From Prevotella sp. (lineage in GTDB: Bacteria > Bacteroidota > Bacteroidia > Bacteroidales > Bacteroidaceae), in assembly GCA_017478025.1 (NCBI GenBank), contig JAFVGZ010000035.1, forward strand, positions 1-36,784: a DNA stretch of 36,784 bases. Direction: 5' to 3'. A program made the translations under genes and the position numbers. Below, piece by piece: positions 15,341 through 33,358 of the stretch (position 1 is its first letter; each line of letters starts with the position of its first letter). The notes beneath the pieces are model-generated. The model did not search any database and was not told the DNA's origin. It saw nothing but the letters and a program-made list of their open reading frames with translations.

Positions 15341-18300
15341 CTATTGTTCTAGCTTGCTGATAACCTTTATCGTGCAGCTGACGTTGTGGTTACTCTTCAG
15401 CCAGATGCGTACGGTGTACTCGCCTGCCGGAGCATTGTTGACGTATATCGGCCAGCCCTGAGGACCATAATGTTTCTGGAGGGAGAAGTAGTTGTTGGGG
15501 TTGGTCTCGGGATCAATCTCAAGGGCATTGAAGTCTATCTGCTCATTGTCGCTGTCCTTTGGTGTAAAGTCGAAGCTGAAGGAGAGATAACCATAGCCGG
15601 TATAAGTGAACTCTTCCACACTCGGCTTGATCATCGTGTATTTCCAGCCTTCGCCGGTGGCGACCGTGAGGGTGGTCTGGACGCCCGGCTTGCTCTTCAG
15701 TCCGAGACGCACATACACGCCCTTGTTGTTGTTCGACTTCATGGAGGTGAGGGTCTGCGTGGCGGCATCCCAAGTGAAGAAACCTTCGTCAACACCATTC
15801 CTCGCGTCCTCGTAATTGGTCGCCTGACCCTTTATTTCCACGTCGTCCCAGTCCCATGTGGCTTCCTCTTCGTAATACCCCTGCAGGTTCACCTTCGTAC
15901 TCTCGCCAACCTTCACCCAGTCTTTCTCAGCCTGGACTTGGAAACTGGTGATGGTAGGTTCATGCATCTTCATCGTGCCCTTGCCATAGACCTCCAGCTC
16001 TACTTCCTCGCTCTGTTGGGTCTCTGGATTATAAGCCTGAGTGGTGAATACCAAGTAGTAGAGCAACTCATACTCGCCAGTGTAATCGTCTTCCTGCTCA
16101 TCGCCCGGACCACGGCGCAGCGCTTTGGCTTTGGCAGTCGTCTGGTTGCATGGCTTTCGTATCATAATCTTGCTCTTGCCATCTGGCTTGATGTCGCCCT
16201 CGGTGGACATAGAGCCACCTTCTCCACTTGAACAGAAGAAATCGCTCGACACATAGAAGCCGTCGTATAGGCCGAATCCCACTTTTGCTCCCGGAGTGTT
16301 CTCAAACTGCTTTCCTGTGAGCAGCAGAACAACATCTGCCATTGTCAATGGAATATGTCCGTACAGCATACCTTTCGTATTGGGGTTACCCTCTGCGTCC
16401 TCAACCTCATCATTTAATTGGAAATCGATGAAGTCTGTGGTCTTCTTCCATTCAGAATAATCAGGATTATAAGGACGTGTCACCGTCTCGCCGGTCTTCT
16501 TGTTCTTCACAACGTAGGCATTGTCCAGTTGGTCGGCCTTGTTCAGGTCATCGTCGCCAGTGTCGCAAGGGGTGCTGGCAGGCTCAAGTTTGCCGTCGGA
16601 GCCGATCTTCACCGTCGTCTCCACTTCCACTTCACCGTCGGAGTACTTCACCTTGGCCTTGGCCTTGATAGTGGCACCCTTGAATTTGCCCCTGTTCTTG
16701 ACTTTGAATTTGCAGGGAGCCTTACCGGATTTGTCGGTATATGACCACTTCCATTGGGGAGCTTCAGGGATGTCCTCCACGTTATCGGTCTCAAACTCTA
16801 CCGTGACTCCCTCAACGGGACGGTCGGCATCCTCGCCCTCAATGCGCTCTTCTACCACAAAAACAATTTCTCCATTGCCATTTTCATCCACCACTAAAGG
16901 TTTTGTGCCGCCCTCGCCTTCGTCAAAAATCCTAATCTTCGGCTTGGCCTTATCCTTCGAAGGTCTGTCACCGGTGCCATCGTCAATAATCGTGATATGG
17001 GCGGTTTTGCGATCTGACCATTTAATATATGTTTCATCATCAAACAGGATGACAATCTCTTCTGTCAAACCAGTAACGGTGCCTTCTGTCGCATTTTCTG
17101 AGGGGAGGAACTCTGTCTGGCATATTCCGTCTTTGTTGGTGATGGCATAATCGGGATCTGCCGTACCGTTAGTGGCTGTGAAGAGCAGCTTCTTGTCAGG
17201 ACATGCCACCCACTCGCCGTTCTTATATTCCAAAAGCTCGTAGCGGATAGTTGTCGATCCGTCTCCATCTCCTCTACTCATCTCCACTTCAGGGGTGAGG
17301 CATTTCAGCTTGTAGGGGATCAAGTTGAATACATCAGACAAGCGGTAGTCGTGCCAAATGTCGTGCTCGTCAATGAAGGAGCAATATGCAAAGACAAAGG
17401 CATATTTCTTGTCCTTGTCAATTCTGAATGAAGTGGCGGCCTTACCCTCCGCATCGGTTTCTGCAACCGTGTTTGTCAAGCTGCCAGATTCACATCCGAA
17501 CTCAACTTTCATTCCCTGGAAGGGCTGATACACGCCATCGACCAGCTTGGTCAATGAGAATACCACATCCTGACTCTGCTCAGGATATATATAAGAGAGC
17601 TGCTCGGCTGGCAGAACCCTGCTGAACTGATAGTCGTCAGGCAACAGCTCCGTCGTCGCTTTAATTTCCCGTGTTCTGCCTTCTTCAAGTTCTACGCTGC
17701 ATGTGGCTGTGATAGAGCCGCCAAAGACTTCAGAGACTTGCCCAGCGGTAAAGGTGGCAAATGCAGCAGAACCACTATACATAAAAGAAGTATTTTTGAG
17801 GGTGACGCCAGTGGCTTCGAAGTCAATTTCCCCTTCACCTTTGCATTCTTCCCATTGACCGTTATTATACTCATAGAGCATGAAGTAGCACTCTTGTTCG
17901 CTGCCGTCGTCCCTCACGGCCTGCTTTGGGTGGACTGCCGCCAGCTTGAAGGGCATCAATTCGAAGTCAAGACTTTCAGCGTAGCTATGCCAAATGCCCT
18001 GTTCGTCGGCGAAAGAGCAATTTGCATACACAGTCGCGTAGTCCTTGTCCTTATTGAGCTGGAAAGAAGTAGTAGCCAAGCCCTCTGCATCGGTTTTGAC
18101 AAGCGTGCTCGTTAAGGTGCCGCCTTCCAGACATCGGAAGCTGACTTCCATTCCCGGGCAGAACTGATACTTGCCATCGACGAGCTTGGTCAATAAGAAC
18201 GTTACTTCCTGGCTCTCCTCTGGATATATATCGACGGGATTACCACCATCAGGGGAAATCCTTGTAAACAGGTAGTCGTCCAATACCAACTCAGTCGTCG

Positions 18301-19465
18301 CAGCACCTTGCCACACCTTGCCGCTTTCAAGCGGTATGTCGCACTTGGCCGTGACGGAACCTTGACTGAAGCTTTTCCCAGCGGTAAAGTTGGCTATAAA
18401 GCCATAACCCCTATTCATGTCAGATGTCTTGGTGAGGGTGACGCCAGTGGCTTCGAACTTGGCTTCGGCTTCCTTTTCGCTCACATTCCATTTGCCGTTA
18501 TGATACTCATAGAGCGTGAATAAGCAATCTTGTTCGCTGCCGTCATTACGGACAGCCAGCTTGGGGGTGAGAGCCTCCAGCTGATAGTTCAGGGTAATGA
18601 ACTTGGCTGTGGCTGTGCCCGTGTACAGTCTGCCATTGTCATTGTCAACCAAGAATCTTGCCGTGACGGGGTATTCCTTAGCGTCATCGCCATCATTATG
18701 GAACGTGACACGAGCCATTCCAAAGGCATCGGTAGTAGGGCTTTGAGTCGAAATAAATCCTTCTGGGGCACTAAACTCGATGGTTGCACCTGTGTAAGGC
18801 TTCTTGCCAGACGGGGATACTTCGTAAACCGCAAATATAGCTTCTGCCTCTTCATTCGGGCCGAGCTTCTGGTCAGGGCTCAGACACTCTATGGTGTAAT
18901 CGCCGTTATACTCCACATAGGTCCTGGCGGTGTATCTTGAAACATTGCCGCTGTTGTCCGTGAAGGTGTACAGACCTTGGATGATATCAGAGAAGCCAGG
19001 TTCCCACAAGTATGCTTTAGGCGTATAGACAACAGTAGCGACGCCATTGTCGTTTGTTGTGGCGGTGATTGGCGCGAGGGTGCCTTTGTTAGCCGTGAAC
19101 GTGACTGATTCACCACTGACGGGCTTCATCTCGCCCTCGTCATTGGTTGTCAACTTGAAATGCAAGGTGATGGGCGATGTAGAAGTATAGACAAACTTGT
19201 CTTGCGCCACCAGTTTGAAGGAAGGAACAGCCGAGATGGATTTCACCTGGTCGAGTGAGATGTCCTTTGTCTCACCATTCTGCTTGATTGAGAGGTTGTT
19301 TCCCTTCGCATCAAACTTCATCTCCGTGCTTTCTGTTGCAGAAACGCGTTCCACGACAGTACCAGACCCGTTCCTGATGATGAGGTCATTGCCCACCTTT
19401 TCGTTCTGAGCCATAGCCACGATGCTGAGCATCATAAGCCATGAAAATAGGAATAGCTTCTTCAT
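15341..19465 (-). CDS. Large secreted Ig-like repeat protein
   Basis: A 1374-residue secreted protein of unknown role. Residues 1-19 are a signal peptide. Residues 26-80 share the hydrophobic spacing of the small protein encoded just upstream. From about residue 85 come invasin-like (Big-1-type) modules marked by patterns such as GESVTFTANKGTLAPITATTNDNGVATVVY and TDAEGLATTSF. A super-repeat of about 210 residues occurs twice (296-505 and 506-718), each an A module (VRNDGSEQDC, EATGVTL) followed by a B module (YPEESQEV, LTKLVDGKYQ), with a diverged third A module to about 815. The C-terminal 550 residues differ and contain charged stretches. The start ATG overlaps the upstream stop by 4 bp. 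It is likely a surface or extracellular rod. Confidence 0.8.
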   Translation of the reverse strand: MKKLFLFSWLMMLSIVAMAQNEKVGNDLIIRNGSGTVVERVSATESTEMKFDAKGNNLSIKQNGETKDISLDQVKSISAVPSFKLVAQDKFVYTSTSPITLHFKLTTNDEGEMKPVSGESVTFTANKGTLAPITATTNDNGVATVVYTPKAYLWEPGFSDIIQGLYTFTDNSGNVSRYTARTYVEYNGDYTIECLSPDQKLGPNEEAEAIFAVYEVSPSGKKPYTGATIEFSAPEGFISTQSPTTDAFGMARVTFHNDGDDAKEYPVTARFLVDNDNGRLYTGTATAKFITLNYQLEALTPKLAVRNDGSEQDCLFTLYEYHNGKWNVSEKEAEAKFEATGVTLTKTSDMNRGYGFIANFTAGKSFSQGSVTAKCDIPLESGKVWQGAATTELVLDDYLFTRISPDGGNPVDIYPEESQEVTFLLTKLVDGKYQFCPGMEVSFRCLEGGTLTSTLVKTDAEGLATTSFQLNKDKDYATVYANCSFADEQGIWHSYAESLDFELMPFKLAAVHPKQAVRDDGSEQECYFMLYEYNNGQWEECKGEGEIDFEATGVTLKNTSFMYSGSAAFATFTAGQVSEVFGGSITATCSVELEEGRTREIKATTELLPDDYQFSRVLPAEQLSYIYPEQSQDVVFSLTKLVDGVYQPFQGMKVEFGCESGSLTNTVAETDAEGKAATSFRIDKDKKYAFVFAYCSFIDEHDIWHDYRLSDVFNLIPYKLKCLTPEVEMSRGDGDGSTTIRYELLEYKNGEWVACPDKKLLFTATNGTADPDYAITNKDGICQTEFLPSENATEGTVTGLTEEIVILFDDETYIKWSDRKTAHITIIDDGTGDRPSKDKAKPKIRIFDEGEGGTKPLVVDENGNGEIVFVVEERIEGEDADRPVEGVTVEFETDNVEDIPEAPQWKWSYTDKSGKAPCKFKVKNRGKFKGATIKAKAKVKYSDGEVEVETTVKIGSDGKLEPASTPCDTGDDDLNKADQLDNAYVVKNKKTGETVTRPYNPDYSEWKKTTDFIDFQLNDEVEDAEGNPNTKGMLYGHIPLTMADVVLLLTGKQFENTPGAKVGFGLYDGFYVSSDFFCSSGEGGSMSTEGDIKPDGKSKIMIRKPCNQTTAKAKALRRGPGDEQEDDYTGEYELLYYLVFTTQAYNPETQQSEEVELEVYGKGTMKMHEPTITSFQVQAEKDWVKVGESTKVNLQGYYEEEATWDWDDVEIKGQATNYEDARNGVDEGFFTWDAATQTLTSMKSNNNKGVYVRLGLKSKPGVQTTLTVATGEGWKYTMIKPSVEEFTYTGYGYLSFSFDFTPKDSDNEQIDFNALEIDPETNPNNYFSLQKHYGPQGWPIYVNNAPAGEYTVRIWLKSNHNVSCTIKVISKLEQ

Positions 19466-29251: not shown

Positions 29252-30295
29252 ATGGCAAAAATGAATTTTGGTGGCGTTATCGAAGAGGTAATGACACGCG
29301 AGGAGTTCCCCCTCGAGAAGGCTCGTGAAATCCTTAAGGATGAGACAATTGCAGTAATCGGCTATGGCGTACAGGGCCCTGGTCAGGCTTGTAACCTCCG
29401 CGACAACGGTTTCAACGTAATCGTTGGTCAGCGTCAGGGCAAGACTTTTGAGAAGGCTATCAACGACGGTTGGGTACCAGGCGAGACTCTCTTCTCTATC
29501 GAAGAGGCAGCTGACAAGGGTACTATCATCATGTGCCTGCTCTCTGATGCAGCAGTAATGTCTGTATGGCCTACTCTGCAGAAGTACCTCACCCCAGGCA
29601 AGGCTCTCTACTTCTCTCACGGTTTCGCTATCACATGGTCTGACCGCACAGGTTGTGTTCCTTCTAAGGACATCGACGTTATCATGGTTGCTCCTAAGGG
29701 TTCCGGCACATCTCTGCGCACCATGTTCCTCGAGGGACGTGGTCTGAACTCTTCTTACGCAGTATATAACGATGCTACCGGCAAGGCTCTTGACCGCACA
29801 CTGGCTCTGGGTATCGGTATCGGCTCTGGCTATCTCTTTGAGACAACATTCCAGCGCGAGGCTACATCTGACCTCACCGGCGAGCGCGGCTCACTGATGG
29901 GTGCTATCCAGGGTCTGCTCCTCGCTCAGTATGAGGTGCTCCGTGAGAATGGTCACACTCCTTCTGAGGCTTTCAACGAGACAGTAGAAGAGCTGACACA
30001 GTCACTCATGCCTCTCTTCGCTGAGAAGGGTATGGACTGGATGTACGCTAACTGCTCTACCACCGCACAGCGCGGCGCCCTGGACTGGTATCCTCGCTTC
30101 CACGACGCTATCAAGCCAGTAGTACAGCAGCTCTACGAGTCTGTAAAGACCGGTAACGAGGCACAGATCTCTATCGACGCAAACTCAAAGCCTGACTACC
30201 GTGTAGGTCTGGAGAAAGAGCTTGCTGCCCTCCACGACTCTGAGATGTGGCGCACAGCTGAGACCGTTCGCCAGCTCCGCCCAGAGAACAACTAA
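29252..30295 (+). CDS. ilvC: Ketol-acid reductoisomerase
   Basis: A 347-residue class I enzyme converting acetolactate to 2,3-dihydroxyisovalerate with NADPH. The nucleotide loop is GYGVQGPGQACNLRDNG (about 32-48), followed by VAPKGSGTSLRTMF and the metal-binding EATSDLTGERG, where Asp and Glu match the family pair. Codon choice differs from its neighbours (many GCT, TCT, GGT), suggesting high expression. The last 77 bases are repeated downstream at 31088-31164 beyond the toxin-antitoxin pair, with three silent differences. It is last in the operon and followed by a hairpin terminator. Confidence 0.96.
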   Translation: MAKMNFGGVIEEVMTREEFPLEKAREILKDETIAVIGYGVQGPGQACNLRDNGFNVIVGQRQGKTFEKAINDGWVPGETLFSIEEAADKGTIIMCLLSDAAVMSVWPTLQKYLTPGKALYFSHGFAITWSDRTGCVPSKDIDVIMVAPKGSGTSLRTMFLEGRGLNSSYAVYNDATGKALDRTLALGIGIGSGYLFETTFQREATSDLTGERGSLMGAIQGLLLAQYEVLRENGHTPSEAFNETVEELTQSLMPLFAEKGMDWMYANCSTTAQRGALDWYPRFHDAIKPVVQQLYESVKTGNEAQISIDANSKPDYRVGLEKELAALHDSEMWRTAETVRQLRPENN

Positions 30296-30354
30296 TTTCT
30301 GCATCACACACCTCACAGTCACATAGGCTGCTGAGGAACATACACAAATAAAAA

Positions 30355-30390
30355 CATCCGGCGTAGTCCCAAAAGGACTTACGTCGGATG
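30355..30390 (+). terminator. Terminator after ilvC (copy 1 of a duplicated hairpin)
   Basis: CATCCGGCGTAGTCC pairs imperfectly with GGACTTACGTCGGATG around a CAAAA loop. A T-rich tract follows only at a distance. The same hairpin in variant form is at 31296-31325. Confidence 0.75.
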
Positions 30391-30511
30391 CTTTGCTTAT
30401 ATTCGGATTTTTTTCTGTCACCCGCTTGCTCTCCGAAATTACCAGATTCCCAGAATAGAACTACATGCTGAAGAGATATCTTGGCATATAGCTCATTTTA
30501 TGGATGTTTTC

Positions 30512-30542
30512 TTTGTATTATCAGAAATAATTCATAACTTTG
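30512..30542 (+). promoter_or_regulatory. Promoter of the toxin-antitoxin operon
   Basis: TTTG at 30512-30515 and TAACTTTG at 30535-30542, 19-bp spacing, 28 bp upstream of the antitoxin ATG. The preceding stretch from 30391 holds nothing else I recognise. Confidence 0.8.
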
Positions 30543-30570
30543 CAGGCAGAAATTAAAATGTTTTGAAGTT

Positions 30571-30810
30571 ATGACTGCATTACAATTAAATGCGGAATTG
30601 TTCCGTGAGCTGAGCATTATCGCAGAAAACGAAAACCTGATGAAAAAGGCCGTCAAATATCTCAAGAAGCTATCCGCCAAGAAGCAGGCAATGGACGAGA
30701 CTGAGTATTTGCTATCATCTCCTGCAATGGCTGACATCATACGCCAAGGCCAGAAAGACATTGAGGAAGGTAGAGGACGTGTCATCAAGTTGGAGGATAT
30801 ATGGAAATAA
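30571..30810 (+). CDS. Antitoxin of a YoeB-type toxin-antitoxin pair
   Basis: A 79-residue protein with a helical basic N-terminal half (LFRELSIIAENENLMKKAVKYLKKLSAKKQ) and the C-terminal pattern typical of RelB/YefM-type toxin-binding tails (ADIIRQGQKDIEEGRGRVIKLEDIWK). It should neutralise the RNase encoded directly downstream, overlapping it by 10 bp, and probably represses the shared promoter. The exact antitoxin family is not certain. Confidence 0.82.
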   Translation: MTALQLNAELFRELSIIAENENLMKKAVKYLKKLSAKKQAMDETEYLLSSPAMADIIRQGQKDIEEGRGRVIKLEDIWK

Positions 30811-31070
30811 AATTCATGCCGAAAGCTGAAGAAGATCTGGCTTATTGGAAGGCAACAGGCAATAAACGCATAATGATGCGCATCACAAAATTGTTGAGCG
30901 ACATTCTTCAGCACCCTTACACTGGCATCGGGAAACCTGAACCATTGAAAGGCGACTTACATGGCATCTGGAGCCGTCGTATTACTGATGAGCATCGTTT
31001 GGTGTATTCCGTCAGTAATGGGATGGTTTATGTCTATGTTATTTCTATGCGTTTCCATTACTCCAAATAA
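30801..31070 (+). CDS. yoeB: YoeB-family mRNA interferase toxin
   Basis: An 89-residue RelE-superfamily endoribonuclease that cleaves mRNA on the ribosome. Family features include the GIGKPEPLKGDLHGIWSRRI block with its catalytic Glu and Arg, DEHRLVYSV, and the C-terminal SMRFHYSK with the catalytic His. All expected active-site residues are present, so the toxin looks functional. It starts inside the antitoxin gene (10-bp overlap) and is the last gene of the inserted segment before the duplicated ilvC end. Confidence 0.92.
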   Translation: MEIKFMPKAEEDLAYWKATGNKRIMMRITKLLSDILQHPYTGIGKPEPLKGDLHGIWSRRITDEHRLVYSVSNGMVYVYVISMRFHYSK

Positions 31071-31087
31071 ACTTATACTTCCATGAT

Positions 31088-31164
31088 AGCTTGCTGCCCT
31101 CCACGACTCAGAGATGTGGCGCACAGCAGAGACCGTTCGCCAGCTCCGCCCAGAGAACAACTGA
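31088..31164 (+). pseudogene. Duplicated 3' end of ilvC
   Basis: These 77 bases match 30219-30295 at 74 positions. The differences are TCT/TCA (Ser), GCT/GCA (Ala) and TAA/TGA (stop), all silent. The codon before the match in the ilvC frame is TAG and there is no start, so it is not translated. Silent-only changes indicate it diverged as part of a working ilvC, either the displaced original end or the end of a donor gene. Confidence 0.95.
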
Positions 31165-31192
31165 TCTGCACACATAATTCTGCACAATAATC

Positions 31193-31233
31193 ATAGAGGT
31201 CTGCGACATATATCGCGGACCTCTATTATTTTT
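31193..31233 (+). terminator. Intrinsic terminator after the ilvC-end copy
   Basis: ATAGAGGTC (31193-31201) / GACCTCTAT (31218-31226) with inner GCGA / TCGC pairing, followed by TATTTTT. Confidence 0.85.
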
Positions 31234-31261
31234 GGGGGGGCATCTGATAAAAAAAACATCA

Positions 31262-31286
31262 AGGTGGGAATTAATAGAACCCACCT
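31262..31286. repeat. Dispersed 23-bp hairpin element, copy 2
   Basis: AGGTGGG / CCCACCT stem around AATTAATAGAA. It is the same element as at 6693-6715, with a perfect stem here. Confidence 0.7.
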
Positions 31287-31295
31287 AAATTAAAA

Positions 31296-31336
31296 CATCC
31301 GGAGTAGTCCTATTAGGATTGCTCCGGATGTTTTTT
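31296..31336. terminator. Bidirectional terminator between the ilvC-end copy and yidC (copy 2 of the duplicated hairpin)
   Basis: CATCCGGAGTAGTCC (31296-31310) pairs with GGATTGCTCCGGATG, followed by six T on the plus strand and preceded by a plus-strand AAAA run that serves the minus strand. It can end transcripts from both sides (ilv/toxin side and yidC). Related to 30355-30390. Confidence 0.85.
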
Positions 31337-31358
31337 GTGTCGCGTATGGTTGTCGTTG

Positions 31359-33290
31359 CTATTTCCTCAGCTGTGCATTCTTGCGTGCCAGTTCTTCTCG
31401 CTTTTTCTGCAGTTCCATCTGCTGCTGTTGCATTGCCTGAAGGCGTGCTGCCATTCCAGACATTTTCTTCGGATTCTTCTTGTTCTCTTCACGGCGGGCC
31501 TCAAGGATGGCGAGGAGTTTCTCATCATCGGTAGTCTTGCGTAGTACCCACATTATCAGGGCTGAGAAGAAGAGTGATACGAAGTAGTAGAAGTTCAGGC
31601 CGGAGCTATAGTCGTTGAACATGAAGAAGAACATCAACGGCATGAGCAACATCATCCATTGCATCATCTTCATCTGCTCTGCCTGCTGTCCCACCATCTG
31701 GTCCTTCTGCTGCTGCATGGTGAACCAAGAGTAGAGCAGGTTTGCCAAGCAGAACAAGATGCACGTCAGAGACAGGTGATCACCGATGAGCCAGAGGTTT
31801 GAATTCCATTCTATGATAGGATCGTAGGTGGAAAGGTCGTCAATCCACAGGAAAGACTCCCTGCGCAGCTGGATGGCGTTAGGCACAAAGTTGAACATTG
31901 CAATCCAGATAGGCATCTGTATGAGCATGGGCAAGCAGCCAGAGAGGGGACTCACTCCGTATTCTGAATACATCTGCATCATGGCCTGCTGCTTCTGCAT
32001 AGCATCCTCAGGCTTGTCATACTGCTTCGTTGCCTCATCAAGCTTCGGACGCAGCACACGCATCTTGGCGCTGGACATATAGCTCTTCTTCACCATTGGG
32101 AAGGTTATGCCCTTCAGTAACAGCGTGATAAGTATGAGTATAATGCCCATAGGAATAGCCATAGAGCGGAGGAAGTCGAACACGTAGAGCGTAAACCAGC
32201 GGTTGATGTAACGGAACAGTGGCCAACCGAGATATACGAGACGCTCTAACTGGAGGTCCTTGCCAAACGTAGAATTCTCCTCCTGACGCTGCAGGAGGCG
32301 GAAGTCGTTGGGACCATAGTAGAACTCCAGCTCTGTCGGCTTGGCTCCGGTTGGATCGAAGGCAGTTTTCAACTTGGCCTGATAGAACTTGAGATAGCCC
32401 TTGTCCTTATTCTTGTCCAAAGGTATGCTCGTCAGGCTGACATCCTTTCCGAAACCCTCCTTTGCTATCATAACAGCGGAGAAGAACTGGTTCTTGAATG
32501 CCACCCAGTCAATATCCTCATCTACGCCCTCATCGGTCTTTTCGCTTGTCTCATTGAGATAGTCCGTGCCGCCTTCTGTAAAGTGATATGTCAGCGTGGA
32601 ATAGCGGTTCTCAAACGAATAGCCCTTCTCCTGCTGCTTGCACTTCTCCTGCCAGTCCACGTCGATGCTATTGGTGCTCGGTGGGAACAGGCCTGCCATA
32701 CCATTGGCGGTAATGGAGCATCCCAACATATAGTCACCCAGCATTTTGTAGCGGATAGTAATATCCTTGCCAGGAGCGGCCTGTGCCACGAAAGTGACAG
32801 AAGAGTCGGTGACTTCTGTTGGCGTAAAGTTCAGACTGCCCGTAGAGATGTTTTCCTCCTTGGCGGCCAGCGTGAAGTTCAGACGCGACGTGTTCTTGTC
32901 GTAAAGTGTTACGTCGGCGTTACCGTCATTGTCCTGGTAATTCTTCACTACAGCCTTCTCCACTACAGCTCCTTTAGCGGCAAACGTCAGTTCAAGTTTG
33001 TCATTCTTCAGGACAACAGTCTTAGAGGCAGAACCGATGGTGTCCTGCTTGGCCATGAAGAAAAGCGAGGTAGAGTCTTCTGCCGCAGCCTTTGCCGAAG
33101 CAGCCGCCTTGGTAGCCTTCTCCACTTCTTTCATCTTCATCTGTTCTTCAGCCTTCTTTTGGCTGACGGCAGCAATTGAATCTGCCTGTCTCTGTGCTGC
33201 TATATCTGCCTCCGAAGGCTGATTATACCACGTGAAGCAAAACAGCACGATAGCTATGAGAATAAATCCCGTAAGTGTATTCTTATCCAT
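31359..33290 (-). CDS. yidC: Membrane protein insertase YidC
   Basis: About 643 residues. An N-terminal membrane anchor (TLTGFILIAIVLFCFTWY) precedes a charged Ala/Lys-rich stretch and a large periplasmic domain (about 80-350), then the Oxa1-fold insertase core with five membrane segments; GIILILITLLLKGITFPM, LPMLIQMPIWIAMF, LTCILFCLANLLYSWF and the MLLMPLMFFFMF block are recognisable. The C-terminus is a basic, Gln-rich helix (MAARLQAMQQQQMELQKKREEL), expected to contact ribosomes. Start ATG 33290 (MDKNTLTGF) is chosen over an upstream frame extension because a -7 element lies at 33307-33300. Confidence 0.95.
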   Translation of the reverse strand: MDKNTLTGFILIAIVLFCFTWYNQPSEADIAAQRQADSIAAVSQKKAEEQMKMKEVEKATKAAASAKAAAEDSTSLFFMAKQDTIGSASKTVVLKNDKLELTFAAKGAVVEKAVVKNYQDNDGNADVTLYDKNTSRLNFTLAAKEENISTGSLNFTPTEVTDSSVTFVAQAAPGKDITIRYKMLGDYMLGCSITANGMAGLFPPSTNSIDVDWQEKCKQQEKGYSFENRYSTLTYHFTEGGTDYLNETSEKTDEGVDEDIDWVAFKNQFFSAVMIAKEGFGKDVSLTSIPLDKNKDKGYLKFYQAKLKTAFDPTGAKPTELEFYYGPNDFRLLQRQEENSTFGKDLQLERLVYLGWPLFRYINRWFTLYVFDFLRSMAIPMGIILILITLLLKGITFPMVKKSYMSSAKMRVLRPKLDEATKQYDKPEDAMQKQQAMMQMYSEYGVSPLSGCLPMLIQMPIWIAMFNFVPNAIQLRRESFLWIDDLSTYDPIIEWNSNLWLIGDHLSLTCILFCLANLLYSWFTMQQQKDQMVGQQAEQMKMMQWMMLLMPLMFFFMFNDYSSGLNFYYFVSLFFSALIMWVLRKTTDDEKLLAILEARREENKKNPKKMSGMAARLQAMQQQQMELQKKREELARKNAQLRK

Positions 33291-33299
33291 AATTGGGCG

Positions 33300-33307
33300 C
33301 AAAGTTA
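33300..33307 (-). promoter_or_regulatory. -7 element upstream of yidC
   Basis: TAACTTTG on the minus strand, 9 bp before the start codon, implying a nearly leaderless mRNA. No -33 match at the usual spacing. Confidence 0.45.
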
Positions 33308-33358
33308 CAATTTTTTTCTGGCATAGGAAAGGTTTTATCATCTTTTCTCTGCTAAATC

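Follow-up and report, generated by a model that had tools for sequence, protein, structure and literature searches.

How can a chromosomal toxin-antitoxin module move without a carrier mobile element? A locus in a Prevotella sp. genome (NCBI GenBank assembly GCA_017478025.1) raises this question, in that an antitoxin-YoeB pair lies there between two copies of the 3' end of ilvC. The window, by which we mean the whole stretch of DNA analyzed, comprises 36,784 nucleotides (contig JAFVGZ010000035.1, positions 1 to 36,784 of the forward strand). The repeat, its recurrence around other modules, and one clean empty site at another locus are direct observations. Our best explanation, to which we assign a probability of roughly 0.6, is that a self-contained module came to lie behind ilvC through an insertion that brought a long direct duplication, as one case of a recurrent process, and that DNA of a sister lineage was joined here one-sidedly. 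The repeat and its flanks consist of the following features.

29252..30295, + strand: ilvC, ketol-acid reductoisomerase, intact, 347 aa (PF07991 6.3e-42, PF01450 1.6e-39, TIGR00465 4.2e-92)
30219..30296, + strand: repeat copy 1, the ilvC 3' end including the stop TAA (repeat listing, BLAST, alignment)
30346..30394, + strand: hairpin T1, terminator-like, behind copy 1, partner of T1', without a third match in the genome
31088..31165, + strand: repeat copy 2, the ilvC 3' end closing with TGA and not attached to any gene, with an abrupt left edge
31185..31234, + strand: terminator-like hairpin with a T-rich end, without a counterpart behind copy 1 (inverted repeat, alignment)
31249..31290, no strand: dispersed intergenic element, also on several other contigs of the same genome
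31287..31334, + strand: hairpin T1', partner of T1
31359..33341, - strand: convergent gene of 660 aa (ORF), which we take to be yidC-like

The last 77 bases of ilvC (30219-30295) are present again 869 bp further downstream with 3 differences, and 75 of 78 positions are identical between 30219-30296 and 31088-31165. The initial annotation had described this duplication with three silent differences, and checking the codons bears it out: 30241 T/A (TCT/TCA, Ser), 30259 T/A (GCT/GCA, Ala), and 30294 A/G (TAA/TGA). BLAST within the window lengthens the pair to 90 columns at 93% identity (E 1.6e-30). What the annotation missed is that homology continues beyond the stop codon, with indels, up to the hairpins at 30346-30394 and 31287-31334, which differ from each other by 9 substitutions in 48 aligned positions. 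A whole-genome search with T1 (E 0.001) matched only T1 itself and its partner, which was hit on both strands on account of its palindromic sequence. Since the hairpin pair is private to the two copies, the left version of the duplicated unit spans ∼176 bases and the right version 247; the right-hand excess (∼70 bases) includes the hairpin at 31185-31234 and the dispersed element at 31249-31290. Past the right edge of the repeat homology is still seen, with a score attained by 0 of 200 shuffles, and none is seen past the left edge (score attained by 105 of 200). Copy 2 is not the tail of a longer, decayed ilvC paralogue, since IlvC matches there at residues 328-347 only. An inverted pair around the module (30350-30379 and 31306-31335) amounts to the two palindromic hairpins and lies outside the cargo ends. 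Two further repeats occur elsewhere in the window: a perfect 57-bp direct repeat at the contig end (1-57 and 85-141), and a tandem pair of ∼640 bp with 69% identity (17306-18582), perhaps paralogous or internally repeated coding sequence.

Between the copies lie the following.

30502..30545, + strand: promoter-like stretch preceding the antitoxin gene, similar to the sequence upstream of two loci on contig 43 of the same genome
30571..30810, + strand: antitoxin-like gene, 79 aa (ORF; Pfam DUF2683 below threshold, 20.2 bits against a cut-off of 27)
30801..31070, + strand: YoeB/Txe family toxin, 89 aa (PF06769 4.5e-29, TIGR02116 2.2e-29)

The presence of an antitoxin-YoeB pair, already proposed by the initial annotation, is confirmed by the ORFs, which overlap by 10 nt, and by both toxin profiles. 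The toxin passes the curated cut-offs (TIGR02116, 101.5 bits against 51.8; PF06769, 100.7 bits against 27), its relatives of solved structure by sequence are 3oei (RelK) and 2a6q (YoeB), and its KPEPLK, EHRLVY, and FHY stretches align with RelK. We take the catalytic residues to be Glu, Arg, and the C-terminal His-Tyr, as in Escherichia coli YoeB, and toxin activity here is predicted. No YefM/Phd profile matched the antitoxin at E 0.001, and NCBIfam gave it no match of any kind at that threshold. The promoter-like stretch, presumably of the Bacteroidetes promoter type, matches the two contig 43 loci at 71% and 76%, and a pattern built from those two loci finds them and nothing else. The listed ORFs contain no other likely cargo gene between the copies and, as previously noted, no integrase, the largest being those of the module and a frame of 138 aa that overlies it on the opposite strand. 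Rfam at gathering thresholds gave no match for the cassette stretch, and PADLOC gave none for either protein of the pair.

The two copies of the ilvC end are more alike than their hairpins. Drift at the rate of the paired hairpins predicts 9.0 differences, 5.6 of them non-silent, against the 3 and 0 observed (P of at most three differences, 0.021; P of zero non-silent, 0.004), with divergence gauged from a single short hairpin pair. The suggestion that the ends are alleles of a working gene gains support from this comparison; the argument originally given for it, that the differences are exclusively silent, is correct as an observation and weak alone, with a probability of ∼0.05 under the drift model. 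The copy-2 combination TCA/GCA/TGA is found in 2 of 18 relative ilvC rows (L024 and L029), or 2 of 17 genes given that one genome (G111) is listed twice, a match that depends on three sites. Silent-only coding differences next to 9 of 48 in the hairpins and a ∼70-base difference in unit length, together with the shared copy-2 states, indicate that both copies are most likely working ilvC ends from two lineages. This allelic look favors one-sided homologous capture at ilvC; gene conversion between the copies could also reduce their divergence.

The annotation had further named, as a check, relatives in which ilvC adjoins the downstream sequence directly, and none appeared among the loci compared. 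The search covered 200 genomes starting from ilvC and 200 starting from yidC, with at most 30 loci compared per search and flanks of up to 1.5 kb. Among 23 relative ilvC loci (flanks no longer than 1.5 kb, and shorter in several at contig ends) and the orthologous pair L104/L105, none has an adjoining yidC-like gene, and ilvC is absent from 29 of 29 relative yidC loci. The sequence after ilvC varies among the relative loci compared, and 187 of 200 genomes have a match somewhere in 31088-32300.

A second cassette of similar layout is present in the same genome. On contig 43, 105 bp comprising the end of a gene and its terminator are repeated at 97% (locus L004, 1156-1957); we presume the gene to be serA-like. 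Between these copies lie a stretch similar to the promoter region of the module in the window and an orphan antitoxin-like ORF that ends at 1780, 72 bp short of the second copy (1853), with no toxin gene in the gap. About 3 kb beyond this cassette, a YoeB-family toxin occurs in a module that shares the promoter-like pattern. We considered the serA-like locus for an aligned empty site and rejected it: G170, the nearest relative at 90% over the gene, carries a different terminator and no module, and represents a module-free state. The genome has five YoeB loci, and only the module of the window is bracketed.

To follow the pattern across the genus, a toxin search was run in which 162 of 398 genomes matched, and several of the 29 best relative loci showed direct repeats bracketing the module. 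We defined a bracket as a direct repeat on both sides of a module within 1 kb and selected 100 stretches by hand among the matches listed, roughly in E-value order; for the first 29, a scan at ±1.5 kb had come before. Once the window and two small loci from its own genome were added, the sample comprised 104 modules in 102 of 103 sequences, 95 of them non-edge. At ≥30 bits, 25 of the 95 YoeB modules are bracketed, compared with 9 of 324 small gene units of other kinds (Fisher p 4.8e-11); at ≥60 bits the counts are 16 of 95 and 4 of 324 (p 3.7e-8). The window and both members of L104/L105 are part of these module counts, which become 23/93 and 14/93 without the window and one of the pair. Control positions were bracketed in 246 of 8,591 cases at ≥30 bits, and we regard the gene units as the better control because the control positions overlap each other. 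The insertion with long target duplication that the annotation had named as an alternative is thus supported as a recurrent pattern around YoeB modules. No bracket was found at ≥30 bits in 70 of the 95 modules, and six of the seven closest toxin relatives (L047-L053) lack one over 1.5 kb or as far as the contig reaches, while the seventh (L048) has one of 30 bp only. Weak cases are L134, whose 180-bp repeat may reflect paralogy (we take it to be the start of a Phd-type antitoxin-like gene), and L092, L096, L154, and L319, with promoter-like repeats; they stay in the bracket counts, save L319, which belongs to the subset excluded from the 65 modules described below. Other toxin-antitoxin-like cargo also lies between direct repeats (L094, 8613-9597; L137, 6445-7943; L096, 5735-7553), which we label, by our own reading of the sequences, as DUF4160/DUF2442-like and PIN-like. 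The pattern may therefore extend beyond YoeB.

Outside the genus the signal is present at lower frequency. We scanned 80 loci in named genomes and set apart 14 Prevotella-like or Bacteroidales loci that overlap the genus sample; of the 12 non-edge loci among these, 2 are bracketed at ≥30 bits and 1 at ≥60. Among other bacteria, 7 of 65 non-edge modules are bracketed at ≥60 bits, compared with 3 of 196 small units (p 0.0028) and 30 of 3,450 positions, and the contrast is weaker at ≥30 bits (9/65 and 11/196; p 0.034). Inspection by eye identified terminator-like hairpins as the repeats in Chitinophaga cymbidii NBRC 109752 (L268) and Streptomyces sp. MJM8645 (L306) and, in an assembly labelled Helicobacter cetorum, a repeated start of the downstream gene (56 bp at 100%).

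Repeat lengths across loci range from about 24 to 180 bp, and, judged by eye, they consist of the 3' or 5' end of a gene, a terminator, a promoter-like stretch, or a tRNA gene, with several left unclassified. Stems of at least 10 (one mismatch allowed) are present in 8 of 28 repeats compared with 28 of 420 intergenic controls, two of the 8 being one orthologous locus. This enrichment is compatible with hairpins taking part in the event as well as with selection for harmless landing.

The clearest view of the event comes from another locus, at which genomes G210 and G111 share one common YoeB-module insertion. In G158 the same upstream gene is followed by one repeat copy, which makes it a clean empty site relative to both; its left flank is that of copy 1 and its right flank is that of copy 2, in G210 and G111 alike. 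The duplicated stretch is ∼64 to 66 bp, with identical copies in G210 and 4 differences in G111. In a Chitinophaga MAG, a complete tRNA-Leu(GAG) and the stretch upstream of it are doubled around the YoeB module, compared with a single tRNA-Leu(GAG) behind matching upstream sequence in four genomes (L360, L361, L362, and L364); only the left side aligns in these four, so that we count them as a single-copy state instead of a full empty site. The repeat in G350 is native sequence from upstream of the downstream gene, and the G020 locus has it once; this single-copy state was the sole outcome of a comparison with arbitrarily chosen relatives. We rejected G117 as a clean target duplication: its copy 1 is 97% and its copy 2 85% identical to a single stretch in G278, and that stretch sits ∼1.2 kb past the point at which G278 and G117 diverge. 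Separately, the last 39 bp of a gene in G350 occur again at 97% in G037 (L178, 2776-2814, and L100, 7576-7614), where they follow a protein extension of ∼300 aa, as if a gene tail had been displaced.

The mechanism that we infer for the ilvC locus runs as follows. The antitoxin-YoeB module would have entered behind ilvC along with a duplicated ilvC 3' end and terminator-like hairpin, and, given the long direct duplication, ilvC and its downstream neighbor would both have lost nothing. The earlier proposal of an insertion that keeps the gene whole agrees with this, ilvC being intact at 347 aa. The incoming DNA, probably derived from a sister lineage, would have brought an ilvC end of its own. 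Homology would have joined it on the ilvC side, with an illegitimate joint at 31087/31088, either through a single crossover of a ligated fragment or through homology-facilitated illegitimate recombination. The ilvC transcripts would then stop at T1, with ilvC retaining its full coding end, while the module would be driven from its own promoter-like stretch and use the hairpin behind copy 2. The same process, as we picture it, would have placed part of the YoeB modules of the genus, and fewer elsewhere, between direct repeats of target sequence. Homology beyond either edge, scored as a signal when at most 10 of 200 shuffles reach the score, is absent in 22 of 29 bracketed cases, the seven exceptions being the window, L004, L115, L134, L161, L276, and L319; one-sided homology may thus not be the general mechanism.

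Those 22 cases are among the evidence for a different account of the locus, in which the module simply inserted with a long target duplication and no second lineage contributed. The G158 empty site and the identical ∼64-bp copies in G210, which simple target duplication predicts, speak for such an event (the G111 copies differ at 4 positions), as do several perfect repeats (L173, 50 bp; L174, 41 bp; L077, 30 bp; L313, 56 bp; L306, 33 bp). At ilvC itself, however, the copies show zero non-silent changes against the ∼5.6 expected from drift at the hairpin rate (P 0.004), and we consider simple target duplication unlikely there, though a serious contender. An integrase-mediated element that used the gene end as its attachment site, with the integrase since lost or acting in trans, is a much more improbable explanation. 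Phage 21 and e14 are integrase-mediated elements of this kind at the end of icd, and both the gene-end duplication with silent differences and the doubled tRNA-Leu of the Chitinophaga MAG resemble attachment sites. Yet there is no integrase between the copies, and repeats of about 24 to 180 bp in targets that look unrelated in sequence and kind are unlike the product of one recombinase specificity. The variable repeat lengths, unrelated-looking targets, and recombinase-free cargo argue against a transposon as well, and we rejected an IS or transposon given a duplication of at least 77 bp here and of variable length elsewhere, in place of a short target duplication of fixed length. Chance, or an error in which two strains were merged in a draft assembly (43 contigs, 84.7% complete), is scarcely credible, since named strain genomes show the pattern too (L268 and L306) and it is enriched over gene-matched controls, and no shared sequence is apparent that would presumably have led an assembler to join 31087 to 31088.

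Returning to capture with a long duplication as the preferred reading, we tentatively extend it, at somewhat less than even odds, to type II toxin-antitoxin modules across bacteria. Such modules may be integrase-free mobile cassettes that enter by long target duplication or gene-end capture, preferring terminators and gene ends, where the upstream gene, the module, and the downstream gene all keep complete signals, and that spread from lineage to lineage via the homology of captured ends. The signature points to integrase-free movement of modules that leaves the neighboring genes undamaged, and a countable signature (25 of the 95 YoeB modules of the genus) combined with a clean empty site makes the question of movement testable.

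In the part of the literature searched, we found no report of a long target duplication around toxin-antitoxin modules, and the route that the signature suggests for YoeB modules was found reported there only for restriction-modification units. Within the known yefM-yoeB/Txe family, the toxin described here is a clear homologue, whereas the antitoxin upstream of it differs from that of the yefM-yoeB operon in having no YefM/Phd profile hit. The sections of PMC3240628 relevant here describe homology-facilitated illegitimate recombination and the integration of a ligated fragment by a single crossover; the pairing of a homologous joint with an illegitimate one matches the one-sided edge at ilvC, but those sections concern laboratory integration of small DNA molecules and not the spread of toxin-antitoxin modules. 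Duplications that arise in transformation through alternative pairing of repeats are treated in part of PMC3784515. The closest parallel is found in passages of PMC3874152 (citing Nobusato 2000 and Furuta 2010), according to which some restriction-modification systems insert with long, variable target duplications of ∼100 bp, a mode of insertion that is also mentioned in a portion of PMC3031569. As those passages present it, the restriction-modification case is likewise an addiction-type, recombinase-free module between long direct target copies of variable length; it differs from ours in that the cargo here is a YoeB toxin-antitoxin pair and that the two ilvC copies look like two alleles.
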